The position numbers were made by a program, and so were the translations under genes. The notes under the pieces were generated by a model, which did not search any database, was not told the DNA's origin, and saw only the letters and a program-made list of their open reading frames with translations. From the NCBI GenBank assembly GCA_024998685.1, contig JACOEH010000029.1:1-59674 (forward strand): a DNA stretch of 59,674 bases, read 5' to 3'. This stretch comes from Nitrospira sp. (lineage in GTDB: Bacteria > Nitrospirota > Nitrospiria > Nitrospirales > Nitrospiraceae). This document shows positions 41,442 to 56,802 of the stretch, in pieces (within the stretch, counting starts at the first letter, position 1; each line of letters opens with the position of its first letter).

Positions 41442-41500
41442 ACAGCGCGCGTATGGTTATCGTCACAAATCCAGTCGGCAACGACTGGATGAAGGCCATG

Positions 41501-42208
41501 ACCTCACAACGCCCTAAGAAAATTCTCATCGTCGAAGACGAACAGGATATTGCGCAGTTGGTCAAACACTATCTTGAAAAGGAAGGATTTCATTCAAACA
41601 TTGCCAAAACCGGTCTTGAAGCACTCAAGCTCGCGGTATCTGAGCATCCTGATTTAATTATTCTTGATCTCATGTTGCCTGAGGTGGACGGATTGGAGGT
41701 GTGTAAAGCCCTCCGCCACAAGCCTGAGACGGCGCTGTCGCCCATTATCATGCTGACGGCAAAAAAAGAGGAGTCCGATACCGTTGTCGGACTTGAGCTC
41801 GGAGCCGATGATTACGTGACCAAACCCTTCAGTCCCAAGACATTGGTCGCTCGGGTTAAATCCCTTTTCCGTCGGCTAGCACGGACAAACAATCAAAACC
41901 CAACGACCTTGGCGTACGGTCTACTACAAATGGACCTGACGCGACATGAAGTAACGGTAAGAGGTGACGAAGTGCTGCTCACGGCCAAAGAGTTCGGGCT
42001 GCTGGAGCATCTATTACGTCACCCTGGCCGGGTACTGACACGGGAGGTGCTCCTCAATGAGGTTTGGGGTTACGACTATTTGGGGACGACGCGAACCGTC
42101 GACGTCCATGTTCGGCGGCTGAAACTGAAAGTGCCGCTTCTCAATGAATCAATTGTGTCAATCAAAACGCTTGGGTATAAATTATTGGACAAGCCTCTGA
42201 CGCAGTAG
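41501..42208 (+). CDS. Response regulator, OmpR/PhoB family
   Basis: 235 aa. Receiver domain: ILIVEDEQD, phospho-acceptor Asp near residue 55 in LIILDLMLPEVDG, Lys in DDYVTKPF. C-terminal winged helix (LLTAKEFGLLEHLLRHPGRV, WGYDYLGTTRTVDVHVRRL) is closest to PhoB/PhoP. No histidine kinase is adjacent, so it is an orphan in this window. The start at 41501 removes an untypical 16-residue extension. Confidence 0.9.
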   Translation, partial: TSQRPKKILIVEDEQDIAQLVKHYLEKEGFHSNIAKTGLEALKLAVSEHPDLIILDLMLPEVDGLEVCKALRHKPETALSPIIMLTAKKEESDTVVGLELGADDYVTKPFSPKTLVARVKSLFRRLARTNNQNPTTLAYGLLQMDLTRHEVTVRGDEVLLTAKEFGLLEHLLRHPGRVLTREVLLNEVWGYDYLGTTRTVDVHVRRLKLKVPLLNESIVSIKTLGYKLLDKPLTQ

Positions 42209-42878: not shown

Positions 42879-43109
42879 TTAGAGTAAGGAGGCGCCATAC
42901 CATTGCTTCCGTTGGGTATCGTAATAGAGATCCGAGAAGTACCCGATCCGACCGTTGTTGGCGTCCGTGCGGCCGCTACAGTCCAGAAGGGAACCGTCTA
43001 ACGCGAGGCCATTCACGAATTCTGACGCTGCCGGCACGGCAGAGGCCGTTGCCGCGCAGATCAGGCTCATTGCCATAGCCATCGTCACATGACGCAGAGA
43101 TCTCCTCAT
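42879..43109 (-). pseudogene. Esterase-like phytase, N-terminal relic
   Basis: Signal peptide then EFVNGLALDGSLLDCSGRTD and NGRIGYFSDLYYD align with residues 28-70 of the intact protein at 55360. After QRKQWYG the match stops and ASLL-stop follows. About 400 residues are gone. GGAGGTG precedes the ATG, so the short peptide could still be made. Confidence 0.8.
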
Positions 43110-43527
43110 CACCTCCGATGGTTGAGTGCCAGTGGAGCTTGTATCGAATCGCGGCTTGTGCCTGGGGGCATGTTCAGGGACACTACATTCTCCCTCCCGG
43201 CTCAACATTGAGGCTTCGTGCGCACTGTCAATGGTTCTTCACGAAGTCGTTGCGGGCCACGATGCCGCGATCGGTCTGATCGGTGGTCTGGATCCAGACC
43301 AATTAATACCGCAGAGTGACACCACCGCGACGGTCGCGAGACTACCGGTCAAAAGGCGACGCCGGGACAGACGCACCTTCCAGATGTCTTGGAGTGGTGG
43401 TTGCCGGAAGAATTGCTCGTGCCCTCATCGTCGATGATCGACATGGAAATCTCCTTCTGAAGAAACTGTGTCTTGTGACGCCGGCCTAGCGATGCATTCC
43501 CAAGGGTGGTCATTTTCACAGAGGATC

Positions 43528-48382: not shown

Positions 48383-48633
48383 ATGACATCGTTACGTACT
48401 GCGGCTCTCGCCATGAGTATACGTCTTCTCGGCGCAATCATGGCTCCTCCCGTGCCGGCCTCCCCTGAGTTTGTGAATGGGCTTGCCCTTGACGGCGCGT
48501 GCTCCCTCCCCGCTCTTCTTGACGCTACAAGGTAGCGGCGGCCGATTTAGGCAACTTTGTTCGTCCCGGCGATCATGGCAAGAAAGACCGGGATGACGAG
48601 GACAATTACGATGATGAGCAGTCTGAAAACTAA
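48383..48633 (+). pseudogene. Esterase-like phytase, relic with internal deletion
   Basis: Opens like the intact gene: GGAGG, then MTSLRTAALAMS and PEFVNGLALDGA. After about 30 bp of unrelated sequence the C-terminal end of the family follows in another frame from about 48523 (RYKVAAADLGNFVRPGDHGK, then an acidic tail DDEDNYDDE to the stop at 48633). The middle of roughly 400 residues has been lost. Confidence 0.8.
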
Positions 48634-49101: not shown

Positions 49102-49128
49102 TTCACACAGAATTAGCACGATCGTAAT
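49102..49128 (+). promoter_or_regulatory. 11-bp tandem repeat site F, before the tiny ORFs
   Basis: TTCAC, TTAGC, GTAAT start at 49102, 49113, 49124; 103 bp before the first tiny ORF. Confidence 0.4.
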
Positions 49129-49231
49129 GAGCGAGAAACAGCCCCCCGATAGGCTTGCATCGTGTTCATCAGAGGTGAAACCGAGATGAACTCCCATGTC
49201 GCTTTCCCAACATGAAAGGGGGTGAGGAACT

Positions 49232-49324
49232 ATGATGACGTCATCGCTCTTGATCGTAGGAACGCTCGTGATCGGTACCGTTTTGGGTGTGCTGTTTAAG
49301 CTGCCGTATGCCGATCGCAAGTAA
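49232..49324 (+). CDS. Tiny single-span membrane protein 1
   Basis: 30 residues: MMTSSLLIVGTLVIGTVLGV, then LFKLPYADRK. One hydrophobic helix followed by a short polar tail. GGGGTGAGG precedes the ATG by 5-6 nt. The layout resembles accessory micropeptides such as KdpF or CydX, but no such complex is adjacent. Confidence 0.6.
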   Translation: MMTSSLLIVGTLVIGTVLGVLFKLPYADRK

Positions 49325-49355
49325 ACCTTGACAACTGGAAAGGAGGTGACAAGCC

Positions 49356-49439
49356 ATGACGACGTGGACCATCGAAGCGTTTCTGCTCAGCGCCATTATG
49401 GGGCTGACGTATACGGTGAGATCTCTGGATCGCGAGTAG
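49356..49439 (+). CDS. Tiny single-span membrane protein 2
   Basis: 27 residues: MTTWTIEAFLLSAIMGLTYT, then VRSLDRE. An ideal AAGGAGGTGA lies 6 nt before the ATG, stronger than for most genes here. It shares layout and the D-R-K/E end with the ORF 31 bp upstream, so the two may be paralogous. Confidence 0.65.
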   Translation: MTTWTIEAFLLSAIMGLTYTVRSLDRE

Positions 49440-49494: not shown

Positions 49495-49538
49495 GACGAG
49501 AGCCGCAACGGAGTGTTCCTGTTCCAGCGGCTCTCGTC
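49495..49538. terminator. 12-bp perfect hairpin downstream of the tiny ORFs
   Basis: GACGAGAGCCGC (49495-49506) and its complement (49527-49538) with a 20-nt loop. No T-run follows on the plus strand, so intrinsic termination is uncertain. Confidence 0.45.
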
Positions 49539-49787: not shown

Positions 49788-50171
49788 ATGGTCACAGTCG
49801 GCACCTTAATGCAGAAGGAACCAGTGACGGTGGACGCAGGCACGTCGGTCATCGAGGCGGCGAAACTGATGAAAGCCTGCAACGTCGAAAGTGTGCTCGT
49901 CGCCCGCCAAGCGAAGATCATCGGCATCCTCACGGAATCGGACGTCGTCAAGAAGTTCGTGGGGGCTGAGAAAGTGTCCTACTTCGTGCCGGTGGAAGAC
50001 ATCATGAGCAGTCCGGTTCCCGGCATCGAAGAGCGGCGGCCATTGACGGAAGCCGCCGATCTCATGGATAAGCATCGTACGCTTCATCTTGGTGTGACGA
50101 AGGGTGGTTCACTCATCGGCCTGGTGTCGGTGCGAGACTTTCTCCGACCGGTGTCCATCGACGACTTTTAA
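49788..50171 (+). CDS. CBS-domain-pair protein
   Basis: 127 aa made of two CBS motifs (TLMQKEPVTVDAGTSVIEAA, GILTESDVVKKFV; then DIMSSPVPGIEERRPLTEAA, GLVSVRDFLRP). Such stand-alone pairs bind adenine nucleotides and regulate partners. AAGGAGGAG 5 nt before the ATG. It leads a set with CYTH-CHAD, corA and ppk. Confidence 0.9.
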   Translation: MVTVGTLMQKEPVTVDAGTSVIEAAKLMKACNVESVLVARQAKIIGILTESDVVKKFVGAEKVSYFVPVEDIMSSPVPGIEERRPLTEAADLMDKHRTLHLGVTKGGSLIGLVSVRDFLRPVSIDDF

Positions 50172-50342
50172 CGACTCCGCCTTTCTTGAGCCCGCTGCCG
50201 ACTCGGCAGTCCATCCCTGCTCGCCCGTGTCGCCAGTCACATGGCGACCCTCCCTGGTCTTCCCTCATGTCCCCCTGAGTTGCATTTTCCCCTCCTCTGC
50301 GTTGACACTGAAGGGGATGTGCCCTGCGGTGAGAAGTTCACG

Positions 50343-51827
50343 ATGATCCGATTGGATAGACAGCTCCCTCGTTGCGGCCCCCCTTCCCCGATCTCTTCAC
50401 AACCAGAACGTGAACGGAAGCTGGCCGTTGCTCCAGATTTCCACCTCCCTCGGCTTCCCGGCACACCGCTCCCCCGTCGGCAACTGATCTCCACCTACTA
50501 CGACACCACCGCCTACGACTTGGCCCATGCGAAGATGACTCTTCGCTATCGAATCGAACGGGGAAAGAAATCATGGCAGCTGAAAATTCCGCTGGGAGAC
50601 GATCGGCAGGAGATAGAAGTGAGCGGCGACCAGGTCGATCCACCGGCCTCTCTGCGCGGATTACTGACTCTCCATCTTGATCATCGGAAGCTGGTACCAG
50701 TGGTCACGCTATGCGTCTGGCGAACCGCCTTTCTGGTATGCCATGGCCGCGTGCCCATTGCCGAGATCGCCCTCGACACAGTGTCGGTAGTCAAAGGCGG
50801 CCGTACAATTCAGCGATTCCGCGAGCTCGAAATCGAACAACGGCAGGGCGACGAGGCCTCACTGCGTGCCCTCGAACAGCAGTTGCGAGAAGCGGGGGCG
50901 TCTGATCACGATGGAAGGCCGAAGCTCTTTCGCGCCCTCTCCCTTTCAGCCCCCACCTCCCCTGTTCCCCCTGAACCGGAGGCGCCGGTGGTCGAACACC
51001 TCAAGTGGGCGCTTGCACGGCACGTCGGATGGCTCCTCGCCTATGATCCCGGCACGAGGCTCGGCACAGAGCCTGAGAGTCTGCATCAACTGAGGGTCGC
51101 GACGAGACGCTTGCGCGCCGTGTTCCGCACAGCTCGCCCGATTCTGCTGCCCGCATGGTTGACGTCGCTGGAACAGGAGCTTGAGTGGCTCAGCGAGCTG
51201 CTGGGACCGGCGCGCGATCTGGATGTCCAGATCGCCTATTTTGCGGATGAATCTGCCGAACTGAATGCGCGAGATCGCAAGTTGTTGGCACCATTTATCG
51301 CCCATCTGCGCACGCAACGAGAGGCTGTTCAGCAGCTGGTGCGCAGCGAACTCACGAGCGCTCGCTACTTCGAACTCATCCGGCGGCTGCAACAGGCCGC
51401 GCATGATCCGTCGGTGGTGGAGTCTCCCCTGTGCATACGCGACCTCGCCAGGCGGGAATTCAAGAAGCTACGCAGGGCAATCTGCCGGTTAGGTCCTTCG
51501 CCGTCAGACACGCGACTTCACAAGGTCCGCATCAAGGCCAAACGCGCTCGCTACGCGGCGGACCTCGCCCGCAGCTCGGTAGGCCAACCCGCCACCCGGT
51601 TTCTCAAGTCCGCGCGTAGGGTCCAAGATCTCTTAGGGATCCATCAAGATGCGCTCCAGGCGGAACGTCATATTCGACAGTTCCTCAAATACTCGACCAG
51701 CGTCCGCGCCGGATTCGTCGCGGGACGCATGGTGGAGCGTCAGCGTCAACGGCGCCAATTCGTCCGCAAGGACATGAAACCGCTGTTCCGGACGTTGTTG
51801 AAGCGGGGTAAAAAGGCGTGGAAATGA
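50343..51827 (+). CDS. CYTH-CHAD domain protein
   Basis: About 494 aa. N-terminal CYTH (triphosphate tunnel) domain with the ExExK motif as ERERK at residues 22-26, then STYYDTTAYDLAHAKMTLRY and LKIPL. C-terminal CHAD helical domain with conserved His/Arg (LHQLRVATRRLRAVFR, LHKVRIKAKRARYAAD). CHAD binds polyphosphate and CYTH handles triphosphate, which fits ppk nearby. ATG at 50241 is a possible longer start. Confidence 0.85.
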   Translation: MIRLDRQLPRCGPPSPISSQPERERKLAVAPDFHLPRLPGTPLPRRQLISTYYDTTAYDLAHAKMTLRYRIERGKKSWQLKIPLGDDRQEIEVSGDQVDPPASLRGLLTLHLDHRKLVPVVTLCVWRTAFLVCHGRVPIAEIALDTVSVVKGGRTIQRFRELEIEQRQGDEASLRALEQQLREAGASDHDGRPKLFRALSLSAPTSPVPPEPEAPVVEHLKWALARHVGWLLAYDPGTRLGTEPESLHQLRVATRRLRAVFRTARPILLPAWLTSLEQELEWLSELLGPARDLDVQIAYFADESAELNARDRKLLAPFIAHLRTQREAVQQLVRSELTSARYFELIRRLQQAAHDPSVVESPLCIRDLARREFKKLRRAICRLGPSPSDTRLHKVRIKAKRARYAADLARSSVGQPATRFLKSARRVQDLLGIHQDALQAERHIRQFLKYSTSVRAGFVAGRMVERQRQRRQFVRKDMKPLFRTLLKRGKKAWK

Positions 51828-52907: not shown

Positions 52908-55058
52908 ATGGCGTCGATCGAGCCTTCTACCGAGAATTCGCATCGGGTCACGGAATCACCAGCGGACCTCGAGAAACCCGGCCTGTTCTTGAACCGTGAG
53001 CTTAGTTGGCTGCAATTCAACCTACGGGTCTTGGAGGAAGCGGAAGATGTGCGACATCCGCTGTTGGAACGCGTGAAGTTTCTGGCGATCTTCGCCACCA
53101 ACCTCGATGAATTCTTCATGATCAGAGTCTCAGGCCTGCGACGCCAGGTTGCCGGCGGAGCGGGAGAAACCCCACCCGATGCCATGACACCATCCGAACA
53201 AATGCTGGCGATATGCCGGGAAGTGATGGTCCATCTCGAGCGGCATCGGACTTGTTGGCAGCAGGATCTGTTGCCAAAACTGCGTGAGGCCGGCATTTAT
53301 GCGCTCTCGTATGGTGACCTGGAGCAGGCCGAACGGGACGGTCTTCGTCAGTACTTCCAGCGTGAGGTTTTCCCCACGCTCACCCCATTGGCCATTGATC
53401 CGACTCATCCATTTCCACATATTTCAAATCTGAGCTTCAACCTGGCCGTGGTGGTCAAGGATCCTGAGCGGGGTGACTGCTTCGCGCGCGTCAAGTTGCC
53501 CGATTCCTTTCGGCGTTTGGTTCCGGTTCCCGCTCAAGAAGGATCCACCCCGCAGGAGAAAGACCTCGGAGGAATCGGGAAAGTTCAACGGTTTGCTTGG
53601 TTGGAAGAGGTCGTGGCGGATAATCTGGATCTCCTGTTTCCCGGCTTGGAGATTGTCGCGTCCTATCCATTCCGCGTGACGCGAGACGCCGATGTGACGA
53701 TCGAGGCCGATGAAGCACCCGATCTGATTACGGCGGTGGAAGAGCAGCTCGAGTTGAGGGATTTCAATTCCGTGGTGCGTTTGGAACTGGCTGGGACCAC
53801 GCCGGACCATATTGCAGATATTTTGATCCGCAATCTACAGATCCCGTCATATCTCGTGTACACGGAACATGATCCGATCGGCATGGCGGGGCTTATGGAA
53901 CTCACCGCGCTCGAACGTCCCGATCTCAAAGATGCGCCTTTTCAGCCCGTCATGCCCGCGCTATTGAGTAAACCGGGTGGTGTGTTGGACGCTATCAGGC
54001 AAGATGATCTTTTGCTGTACCATCCTTACGATAGTTTTACGCCGGTCGTCGAGTTTGTCCGTGAAGCGGCCAACGATCCGAATGTCCTGGCGATCAAACA
54101 GACGTTGTATCGCGTGAACCCAAAATCCCCGATTATCGATGCGTTGATGGAAGCTCGGGTCAATGGGAAGCAGGTGGCCGTGCTGGTAGAGCTCAAGGCT
54201 CGTTTCGATGAAGAAAATAATATCGAATGGGCCCGAAAGCTCGAAGATGAAGGAGTACATGTCGTCTACGGGGTGCGCGGGCTCAAAACCCATGCGAAAG
54301 TGTGTCTCGTCGTCCGGCGCGAACCGGAGGGGATCCGACGGTACGTCCATCTCGGAACCGGCAACTATAATGTGCTGTCGAGTCGTATCTACACGGATCT
54401 GAGCTACTTCACGTGTGATCCCGCCATCGGCAGTGACGTGTCCGATCTGTTTAACGCGCTGACCGGGTACTCCAGGAAGGATGGCTACGCCAAATTGCTG
54501 GTCGCGCCGGCGGCGTTGCGGCGGGAGCTGCTCGATCGGATCGATCGCGAGATTCACTGTCACCTGAAAAACGGCGATGGGCATCTTGCATTCAAGATGA
54601 ATGCATTGGTGGATAAGGCATGCATTCAGGCGCTGTACCGTGCCGCACAGGCCGGTGTGAAGATTGAATTACAAGTGCGCGGCATCTGTTGTTTACGGCC
54701 AGGTATCCCCGGCATGAGCGAGGGGATTACGGTGACGTCCGTTGTCGGCCGTTTTCTCGAACATGCCCGGATTTATTATTTTCATAACGGGGGACAGGAT
54801 GAAGTGTTTCTTGGAAGCGCTGATCTCATGCCGCGCAATCTGGATCGCCGTGTGGAAATCCTCTTTCCGGTGCTTCATTCCCGCTGGCGGGAGGTCATCG
54901 TGCATGACATTCTCGACGTCAGTCTTCGCGATAATGTCCAAGCCAGACGGTTGCGTTCAGACGGGACCTACGAGCGTCTTACGCCTTTGGAAGGGGAACC
55001 AAGCGTCAATTCGCAGGACTGGTTTCTCAATCGCTGGAAAGCCAGATCCATGAGCTGA
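52908..55058 (+). CDS. ppk: Polyphosphate kinase 1
   Basis: Polymerises the gamma phosphate of ATP into polyphosphate, reversibly. 716 aa with the four PPK1 domains: FLNRELSWLQFNLRVLEEAE, DPTHPFPHISNLSFN, and the two phospholipase-D-like catalytic halves. The autophosphorylated His is in LKTHAKVCL at about residue 462 and the second His in FLEHARIYYFHNG at about 618. It begins directly after the corA stop. Confidence 0.96.
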   Translation: MASIEPSTENSHRVTESPADLEKPGLFLNRELSWLQFNLRVLEEAEDVRHPLLERVKFLAIFATNLDEFFMIRVSGLRRQVAGGAGETPPDAMTPSEQMLAICREVMVHLERHRTCWQQDLLPKLREAGIYALSYGDLEQAERDGLRQYFQREVFPTLTPLAIDPTHPFPHISNLSFNLAVVVKDPERGDCFARVKLPDSFRRLVPVPAQEGSTPQEKDLGGIGKVQRFAWLEEVVADNLDLLFPGLEIVASYPFRVTRDADVTIEADEAPDLITAVEEQLELRDFNSVVRLELAGTTPDHIADILIRNLQIPSYLVYTEHDPIGMAGLMELTALERPDLKDAPFQPVMPALLSKPGGVLDAIRQDDLLLYHPYDSFTPVVEFVREAANDPNVLAIKQTLYRVNPKSPIIDALMEARVNGKQVAVLVELKARFDEENNIEWARKLEDEGVHVVYGVRGLKTHAKVCLVVRREPEGIRRYVHLGTGNYNVLSSRIYTDLSYFTCDPAIGSDVSDLFNALTGYSRKDGYAKLLVAPAALRRELLDRIDREIHCHLKNGDGHLAFKMNALVDKACIQALYRAAQAGVKIELQVRGICCLRPGIPGMSEGITVTSVVGRFLEHARIYYFHNGGQDEVFLGSADLMPRNLDRRVEILFPVLHSRWREVIVHDILDVSLRDNVQARRLRSDGTYERLTPLEGEPSVNSQDWFLNRWKARSMS

Positions 55059-55259: not shown

Positions 55260-55359
55260 GCCGGGCTAATGCAGTGGTAAACGTCCTGCCTTATGTTCCC
55301 CGCTGCGGATCATTGCTGCTTGAGACGACTTCACCCGTCATGCACACTTGGAGGGGATC

Positions 55360-56802
55360 ATGACATCGTTTCGTACACTGACTCTGGCTGTCAGTTTCAG
55401 TCTTATGGGCACCGTCACGGACCCAGCTGCACAGGCTGCGCCCGAATTCGTCAACGGCATGGCTCTCGATGGCGGGGCACTGGATCGTAGCGGCGGCATG
55501 GATGCCAATACGGGTCGAGTCGGTTATTTCTCAGATATGTACTACGACCATCAACGTAATCAATGGTGGGGCCTTTCTGACCGCGGACCCGGCGGTGGCC
55601 TTCTCAGTTATGAGACCCGCGTTCAGCGGTTTCGTTTGAAAGTCGACAAGAAAACAGGAGCAATCAGCGGCTTCAAGATCCTCAAGACCATCATTTTTAA
55701 GGATGAGAACGGCAACCCGATGAACGGGCTGGCTCCTAGCCCGTCCAACGTCCTGGGCAATGCTTTCGACCCGGAAGGGTTCGTCATCAACCCGCATAAT
55801 CACAGTTTTTATGTGTCGGACGAGTACGGCCCTTCTCTCTATGAGTTCAACGACAAAGGAATCCGAGTGAGAACCTTTGCCACCCCGACCAACTTGGTTC
55901 CTCGCGACAATGCCGGAATGCCCAACTTTGCCGGTGATACCGGAAACACCAGGGGCAAGCGGACCAACCGAGGGTTTGAAGGTCTCGCGATCAGCCCCGA
56001 TGGGACCTATGTGTATGCCATGCTGCAAAGTGCTATGCTGGACGAAGGTGGGGGGAACGGCCTATGCAACCGCATCGTCAAATTCAGCACCGTGACCGGC
56101 ACGGCAGTCGCCCAGTATGCCTACCAGATGGAAGGCTCCAGCCAGGGCCGCGGCATCTCCGCGCTTTTCGCGATCAACGATCACGAGTTTCTGGTATTGG
56201 AGCGTAATAACCGTGGACTCGAGGTAGGAGCTGAGCTCTCGCCCCCCAACAAAAAGCTCTACCGCATCGACATCACCGGGGCGACCGATTTCAGTCCTCC
56301 CGCTGCCCCATTCGCGGCCGCCAATTGTCCGGCCGGCAAGGTCACCAAGAACCCTGTTCCGTTCCTGGACCTCGCTGCCGATCCCCTGCCTGAGTTTGGG
56401 AACAAGGTGCCTGAGAAATGGGAAGGATTGGCCGTTGGCCCACGCTTGAAAGACGGCAGCTACGTGATGGTGGTCGGCACCGACAACGATTACAGCGTGA
56501 CCCAGAACGCCGTCGGCCAGCAGTTCGACGTCTACTTCCGTGTCGCTGACACTGATCCGTTCGTCAGTTCGATCCAGTGTCCGCTCGGCTTGATCACCGG
56601 CTGTTTTACGACAGCCGATATCGCGGCCGATGGCGACATCGACGTGATGTTCGACCTACCCAATGACGGGAGCGACAAGTTACTCCCTGGAGTGCTGCAC
56701 GCCTACAAAGTCTCGGCCGCCGACCTCGACAACTTTGTCCAACCTAGTGGCCAGGACAAGAAAGAGGGGGGTGACGATCACGAAAAAGATGATGACGAAT
56801 GA
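55360..56802 (+). CDS. Esterase-like phytase family protein, intact copy
   Basis: 480 aa, secreted (signal peptide to AQA/AP). The phytase-like beta-propeller shows NTGRVGYFSDMYYDHQ, NAFDPEGFVINPHNHSFYVS, RGFEGLAISPDGTYVYAM and KWEGLAVGP, with many acidic calcium-type loops. Ends in an acidic tail (GGDDHEKDDDE). Expected to release phosphate from organic esters outside the inner membrane; activity is inferred. GGAGGGG before the ATG. Two relics of the same gene lie at 42879 and 48383. Confidence 0.85.
   Translation: MTSFRTLTLAVSFSLMGTVTDPAAQAAPEFVNGMALDGGALDRSGGMDANTGRVGYFSDMYYDHQRNQWWGLSDRGPGGGLLSYETRVQRFRLKVDKKTGAISGFKILKTIIFKDENGNPMNGLAPSPSNVLGNAFDPEGFVINPHNHSFYVSDEYGPSLYEFNDKGIRVRTFATPTNLVPRDNAGMPNFAGDTGNTRGKRTNRGFEGLAISPDGTYVYAMLQSAMLDEGGGNGLCNRIVKFSTVTGTAVAQYAYQMEGSSQGRGISALFAINDHEFLVLERNNRGLEVGAELSPPNKKLYRIDITGATDFSPPAAPFAAANCPAGKVTKNPVPFLDLAADPLPEFGNKVPEKWEGLAVGPRLKDGSYVMVVGTDNDYSVTQNAVGQQFDVYFRVADTDPFVSSIQCPLGLITGCFTTADIAADGDIDVMFDLPNDGSDKLLPGVLHAYKVSAADLDNFVQPSGQDKKEGGDDHEKDDDE

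Follow-up and report, generated by a model that had tools for sequence, protein, structure and literature searches.

A genus-restricted family of predicted membrane micropeptides behind a Pho-box-type promoter in Nitrospira

The window, by which we mean the whole stretch of 59,674 nucleotides of Nitrospira sp. DNA that was analysed, carries two tandem open reading frames, sORF1 and sORF2, which are 30 and 27 codons long and lie 31 nt apart, exactly as had been claimed from the sequence alone. The features of the locus referred to below are as follows.

41453..42208, + strand: response regulator of the PhoB/OmpR type (best NCBIfam match PhoB TIGR02154, E 3e-69, below the family cut-off)
49102..49140, + strand: Pho box with half-sites TTCAC, TTAGC, GTAAT and GAAAC at 49102, 49113, 49124 and 49135 (11-bp spacing)
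49150..49155, + strand: −10 element TAGGCT (TAN3T), 9-10 bp past the last half-site
49215..49225, + strand: Shine-Dalgarno sequence of ORF1, AAAGGGGGTGA, with one G.U wobble
49232..49324, + strand: sORF1 (ORF1), predicted single-helix membrane micropeptide of 30 aa, MMTSSLLIVGTLVIGTVLGVLFKLPYADRK
49339..49349, + strand: Shine-Dalgarno sequence of ORF2, AAAGGAGGTGA, kept in most homologues
49356..49439, + strand: sORF2 (ORF2), predicted single-helix membrane micropeptide of 27 aa, MTTWTIEAFLLSAIMGLTYTVRSLDRE
49495..49538, + strand: 3' hairpin with a 12-bp stem, GACGAGAGCCGC/GCGGCTCTCGTC, and without a U tract
49788..50171, + strand: CBS-domain protein (Pfam PF00571), syntenic in relatives
50241..51827, + strand: CYTH-CHAD protein (Pfam), at most 3 kb from the Pho-box cassette in 21 genomes
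52908..55058, + strand: polyphosphate kinase (Pfam), syntenic in relatives

Each ORF had been credited with a near-ideal Shine-Dalgarno sequence, and this was borne out by the computed duplex energies, −16.9 kcal/mol for ORF1 and −17.6 kcal/mol for ORF2 with the canonical anti-Shine-Dalgarno sequence, which may not equal the 16S tail of the host. The genome, 4.83 Mb in size, has six matches to the pattern AAAGGRGGTGA-N4-8-ATG, of which two belong to sORF1 and sORF2; of the other four sites, two precede peptide-precursor-like ORFs, one precedes a 147-aa membrane protein, and one has no real ORF behind it. The two precursor-like ORFs, which resemble precursors of modified peptides, are at G000:C62:2699 (67 aa, CGCGCGC-G10) and at G000:C78:2792 (51 aa, lasso-like). 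Small hydrophobic ORFs led by a Shine-Dalgarno sequence number six in the real window, compared with 0-4 per 60 kb in first-order Markov versions of it, and between them sORF1 and sORF2 provide the highest hydrophobicity and the strongest Shine-Dalgarno sequence among the six. The suggestion of one hydrophobic helix per ORF agreed with hydropathy and, for sORF1, with an AlphaFold2 model in which residues 2-29 form one helix (mean pLDDT 86), and on these grounds each peptide likely forms a single membrane helix. Compared with its relatives, the window's sORF2 peptide shows lower hydrophobicity, and it has an unusual Thr5 and Arg22. The tails ending in D-R-K and D-R-E described by the sequence-only reading are literally present in the window, but the D is not conserved and most relatives end in G-R-E.

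The search of related genomes that had been proposed as a check detected sORF2 homologues in many Nitrospira species across the genus, with E-values as low as 3e-8; for sORF1, it yielded homologues in a few species only (G012, G027 and G037) and a remnant in G044. The named relatives with the same peptide are Nitrospira MAGs. With a profile, family members were found in 50 of the 79 genomes of the genus, some of them through shorter related peptides; outside Nitrospira, the sORF2 profile had no match in the 94 other genera covered by the 198 genomes of the phylum, so that one genus of 95 was positive. Scans of Pfam and NCBIfam returned no family covering either peptide, an Rfam scan of the locus gave no match, and neither did blastn against plasmid and phage collections. 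By these searches, the peptides represent a previously unnamed family restricted to the genus Nitrospira.

Homologues keep their length and their Shine-Dalgarno sequence across the genus. The consensus of the sORF2 family is MxxWIIEAFLLSAIxGLTYTVxSxGRE; all 26 members have Glu7, a small residue at position 12 (S, A or G) and G, T, S or A at position 16, and Tyr19 is retained in 24. The earlier proposal was to fall if relatives did not keep the frames; they do keep them, those of the sORF2 type genus-wide. The synonymous-rate bias that it had suggested looking for was also evident: among 19 loci, comprising the Pho-locus copies and two pstS-side paralogues, differences at the three codon positions stood at 1221:616:2116, with the third position most variable, and a codon model gave an omega of 0.21 (lnL −842.7 versus −884.0 at omega 1; 2ΔlnL = 83). 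The signal is large, albeit drawn from non-independent sequences on a long tree. The codon comparison thus indicates that sORF2-type peptides are under purifying selection throughout the genus, and conservation together with the codon evidence indicates that sORF1 and sORF2 are real genes.

The two ORFs had been taken for paralogues. Comparison of their protein profiles was weak (probability 21%); however, the first unit, consisting of leader, Shine-Dalgarno sequence and ORF1, aligned with the second better than 300 of 300 shuffles in each of three genomes, and the paralogy was settled by this comparison at the DNA level. G012 has sORF1 without sORF2, at the place that sORF2 takes in other species and with an alignable leader ahead of it. 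The pair is best read as the product of a tandem duplication after which the first copy diverged. Only four species are known to carry sORF1, intact or as a remnant, at the Pho locus (the window, L055, L057 and L059), and within these four the pN/pS of sORF2 was near 1 in most comparisons and that of sORF1 was scattered between 0.4 and 1.4. Selection on both frames in this clade may be relaxed, or it may be directed at a new role. The Pho box is lost in G027, whose upstream region differs, and in G044, where the 5' half of sORF1 is missing too, and decayed ORFs are present in G033, in G099 and in one copy of G006; the losses and decayed copies suggest that the cassette is dispensable in some lineages. 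At about position 300 of G044:C262 (L057) we noted an apparent deletion between ATCG repeats that takes out the Pho box and the beginning of sORF1 but leaves sORF2 intact, or alternatively an assembly fault near the contig end. The genomes G057 and G115 each hold 12-13 family copies, many of them without a Pho box. Some family copies in these two genomes stand directly behind another small membrane ORF (MMRAKSPLAQQTLAGITLFLVFGVLAMIWPV...).

The Pho-box-like site that had been noticed ahead of the ORFs proved to be a true Pho-box-type promoter, unique in the window and conserved at the sORF loci of relatives. Seventeen aligned upstream blocks share TTCAC, TTNGC, GTAA and GAAACA at 11-bp spacing followed by TAnnnT, and the −10 columns T49, A50 and T54 are invariant in this alignment. 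The pattern of four 11-bp units plus −10 element has a single zero-mismatch match in the window, where none is expected even at three mismatches. When a position weight matrix of the block was run over both strands of about 30 loci, 23 matches exceeded 8 bits and shuffled sequence gave 0. Of these matches, 20 were promoters of sORFs; two others were located 75-86 nt ahead of pstS, and the last was 58 nt ahead of a PsiE-cluster gene. The pstS upstream regions beat at least 99 of 100 shuffles in 22 of 29 cases. A typical pstS site reads TTAAC-N6-TTAAC-N6-TTGAT-N6-GAAAT plus a −10 element, from which the sORF-site consensus TTCAC/TTGGC/GTAAC/GAAAC differs in detail. A profile of the full promoter matched 27 genomes across the genus at E ≤1.4e-6, with sORF cassettes behind the box in about 25. 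Nearly all of these matches were 120-135 nt ahead of a family peptide, the exceptions being the decayed ORFs in G033 and G099 and a box in G001 that lies 600 nt from a different family member.

A scan of the locus for consensus promoters and terminators found neither element, because the promoter lacks the usual −35 element and the hairpin, whose loop is long, has no U tract. A Pho box as described in the literature consists of direct repeats of 11 nt that end about 10 bp ahead of a −10 element of the form TAN3T, with repeat units of the TTAAC type in cyanobacteria and GTTCACC in Streptomyces (PMC4415409, PMC1906773), and the Nitrospira sORF promoter matches this architecture closely. The 11-bp direct repeats upstream of a −10 element, and the same element before pstS genes and one psiE of the genus, argue that the cassette is likely to be under phosphate-starvation control. 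The gene for the PhoB-type response regulator is 7 kb upstream of the cassette, and its product is a candidate activator.

The 3' hairpin folds with a z of −3.1 and has a near-constant position, about 51 nt past the sORF2 stop in most relatives. Six of its pairs show compensatory changes among 14 loci, and the sole significant match of its covariance model in the window's genome is the sORF locus. It is probably the end of the mini-transcript or a stabiliser; since there is no U tract, the word terminator would be an interpretation. Farther downstream, the window encodes the CBS protein, the CYTH-CHAD protein, CorA, polyphosphate kinase and a phytase-like protein (Pfam), to which the neighbourhoods of relatives add PhoX, a PstS-like protein and PsiE.

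The coding sequence, the family, the duplication, the Pho-box-type promoter, the hairpin and the synteny are all supported by computation. We propose, with a probability of roughly 55%, that the locus is a PhoB-activated mini-operon whose one-helix peptides assist or regulate a membrane protein involved in phosphate or polyphosphate metabolism. Upon phosphate shortage, active PhoB would bind the tandem array of four half-sites (49102-49140) and thereby launch, near 49160, a transcript about 380 nt long that would probably end at, or be protected by, the hairpin at 49495-49538. Owing to the very strong ribosome sites, both duplicated peptides would be translated at a high level and would insert in the inner membrane, probably with the N terminus out and the C terminus in. 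Docking on a larger membrane protein would involve the small face S12xxxG16 and the buried Glu7, and GxxxG in sORF1; the conservation of the small face and of the buried Glu suggests helix packing against a partner. During starvation, the docked peptides would then tune or stabilise this partner, which would take part in phosphate uptake, in phosphate signalling or in the metabolism of polyphosphate. The expansion of the family in G057 and G115 is not typical of a dedicated regulator and counts against this explanation. So do the small number of species with sORF1 at the locus and the pN/pS near 1 of the paired peptides there, the lost Pho boxes and decayed ORFs, and the differences in detail between sORF and pstS sites.

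Several known small proteins resemble what we propose. YoaI of E. coli is a tiny membrane protein of 34 aa that is transcribed under PhoR-PhoB and acts on EnvZ (PMC11853020); it differs in being a single gene for which neither tandem copies nor a conserved 3' hairpin are reported there, and the likeness drawn here is one of size, membrane location and control. MgrB, which acts on PhoQ, and DUF1127 proteins, for which binding to PhoR is hypothesised (PMC12501420), are likewise small proteins whose targets are sensor kinases in ion or phosphate signalling, but MgrB has 47 aa and conserved residues of its own, and DUF1127 proteins are positively charged, their hypothesised target being the charged region of PhoR; the Pfam scan gave no similarity of the sORF peptides to either. 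KdpF is a single-helix peptide of about 30 aa that belongs with a transporter and whose induction depends on a two-component system. Unlike KdpF, which is co-transcribed with kdpABC, the Nitrospira mini-operon stands alone; its neighbours are phosphate genes instead of kdpABC, and neither Pfam nor NCBIfam gave a match to the KdpF family.

Related tiny membrane ORFs appear, by sequence comparison, at at least two other conserved loci. A second tandem cassette, found with the hairpin model in G007 and G054 (L199 = G007:C17 and L200 = G054:C2), is located downstream of a sigma-54 activator gene and carries the same kind of 3' hairpin. Its second peptide (MMMMLMLLNIGVLVIGAVFLMYGALGPDRK) has 43-45% identity to sORF1 and was detected with profile A6 in about nine genomes, and G001 has a sORF2-like peptide in the matching slot. 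Distant relatives of sORF1 ending in GPDRK occur at other loci. Up to three one-helix ORFs led by Shine-Dalgarno sequences make up a third locus, which is flanked by smpB and a two-component system and present in 11 genomes, including the window's own. One could tentatively envisage genus-specific, interchangeable micropeptide cassettes, each made of a promoter, one or two one-helix peptides, extreme ribosome sites and, at some loci, a conserved 3' hairpin, which would be placed under different sensory inputs (PhoB here, the neighbourhood of a sigma-54 activator gene elsewhere, and the smpB/two-component locus), with the helices as plug-in adaptors coupling nutrient stress to membrane machinery; we consider this broader reading possible but rather doubtful. 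In the window's genome, the smpB locus (G000:C80:15700-16600; L140, about 7.7-8.6 kb) has three ORFs of this kind, MMATFLFILTMSFVGLILWGSREIGS, MVSFIEVFLLAAIFGVLYAMLQLARR and MTTIFFALLALTAVFGFMYKAAFLDGE, and two of the three recur in most of the 11 genomes.

The main rival to a mini-operon of accessory peptides is a type I-like membrane toxin of the DinQ or TisB kind, which would be restrained by an antisense or processing RNA and, once phosphate runs short, would depress the membrane potential and make growth slower. DinQ is a 27-aa single-helix peptide under SOS control (PMC3567139), and the sORF peptides share with DinQ and TisB a length of 27-30 aa, one predicted helix and a transcript that is probably stress-controlled; the tandem copies, the multi-copy loci of G057 and G115 and the decayed copies would also fit a toxin. 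However, control is probably by phosphate and not SOS, and a hallmark of type I toxins, blocking of the Shine-Dalgarno sequence in the full-length leader, was not conserved: the sites are strong and open, and their accessibility was not consistently below that of shuffled flanks. In addition, a consensus scan, which is a weak test, found no sigma-70-type antisense promoter, Rfam gave no match, and both the conservation of polar positions and the stable linkage to phosphate genes point to a specific partner. We regard a toxin as unlikely. A regulatory or dual-function RNA, in which the leader and the 3' hairpin are functional and the ORFs are accessory or only set the translation of the transcript, would account for the compensatory changes in a hairpin found almost nowhere else in the genome; yet selection acts at the codon level on the peptide genus-wide, the leader folds no better than shuffles, and a terminator or stabiliser would yield such a hairpin, so that we give this reading even less weight. 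Slightly less probable again is that the ORFs are leader peptides or upstream ORFs controlling the CBS and CYTH-CHAD genes, which do lie downstream in the same orientation, both here and in many relatives, but are separated from the sORFs by about 350 nt and a strong hairpin; no CYTH-CHAD gene is immediately downstream in G004 or in the pstS-side paralogues, and what is conserved is the amino-acid sequence and not the codon type. An accessory one-helix subunit of a respiratory complex resembling PetG is very improbable, since the top three PDB profile matches (all to cytochrome b6f PetG), the 3 of 26 members matching Pfam PetG (PF02529; best E 0.008, short of the family cut-off) and the shared N-terminal motif I-E-x-[FL]-L rest on about 14 aligned residues with E-values that are non-significant once tests are counted, and length, C-terminus, genetic setting, Pho control and location all differ or point elsewhere.

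Nitrospira bacteria play a major part in nitrite oxidation and in complete ammonia oxidation, and they are difficult to manipulate. To our knowledge, their control of phosphate has been little studied, and the open literature searched yielded no paper on a Pho regulon in Nitrospira. What is new here is a testable Pho-box consensus for Nitrospira and a gene family undescribed in sequence libraries; as judged from sequence, this genus-restricted, PhoB-linked membrane micropeptide family is solid as a set of genes and a Pho-promoter module, with its function a proposal. An unnamed genus-only family behind a probable phosphate-starvation promoter, in a polyphosphate cluster, suggests that nitrifying bacteria have a layer of phosphate control that has so far gone unrecognised. 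If the peptides do tune phosphate uptake or polyphosphate storage, this would bear on nitrifiers in phosphate-poor water and on wastewater treatment.

Two minor observations concern the surroundings of the cassette. Several relatives (L017, L023, L024, L026, L028 and L031-L033) have a conserved 37-aa membrane ORF led by a Shine-Dalgarno sequence (like MNTRLQAVLSFMKSLMTRLAIIVLSVCGLFIRLRPAP) on the opposite strand, a few hundred nucleotides downstream of sORF2, which is absent from the window. Within the window, inspection by eye and clustering showed 48383-48535 and 42879-43208 to be truncated copies of the N terminus of the phytase-like protein (55348-56802), with the shared motif EFVNGxALDG.
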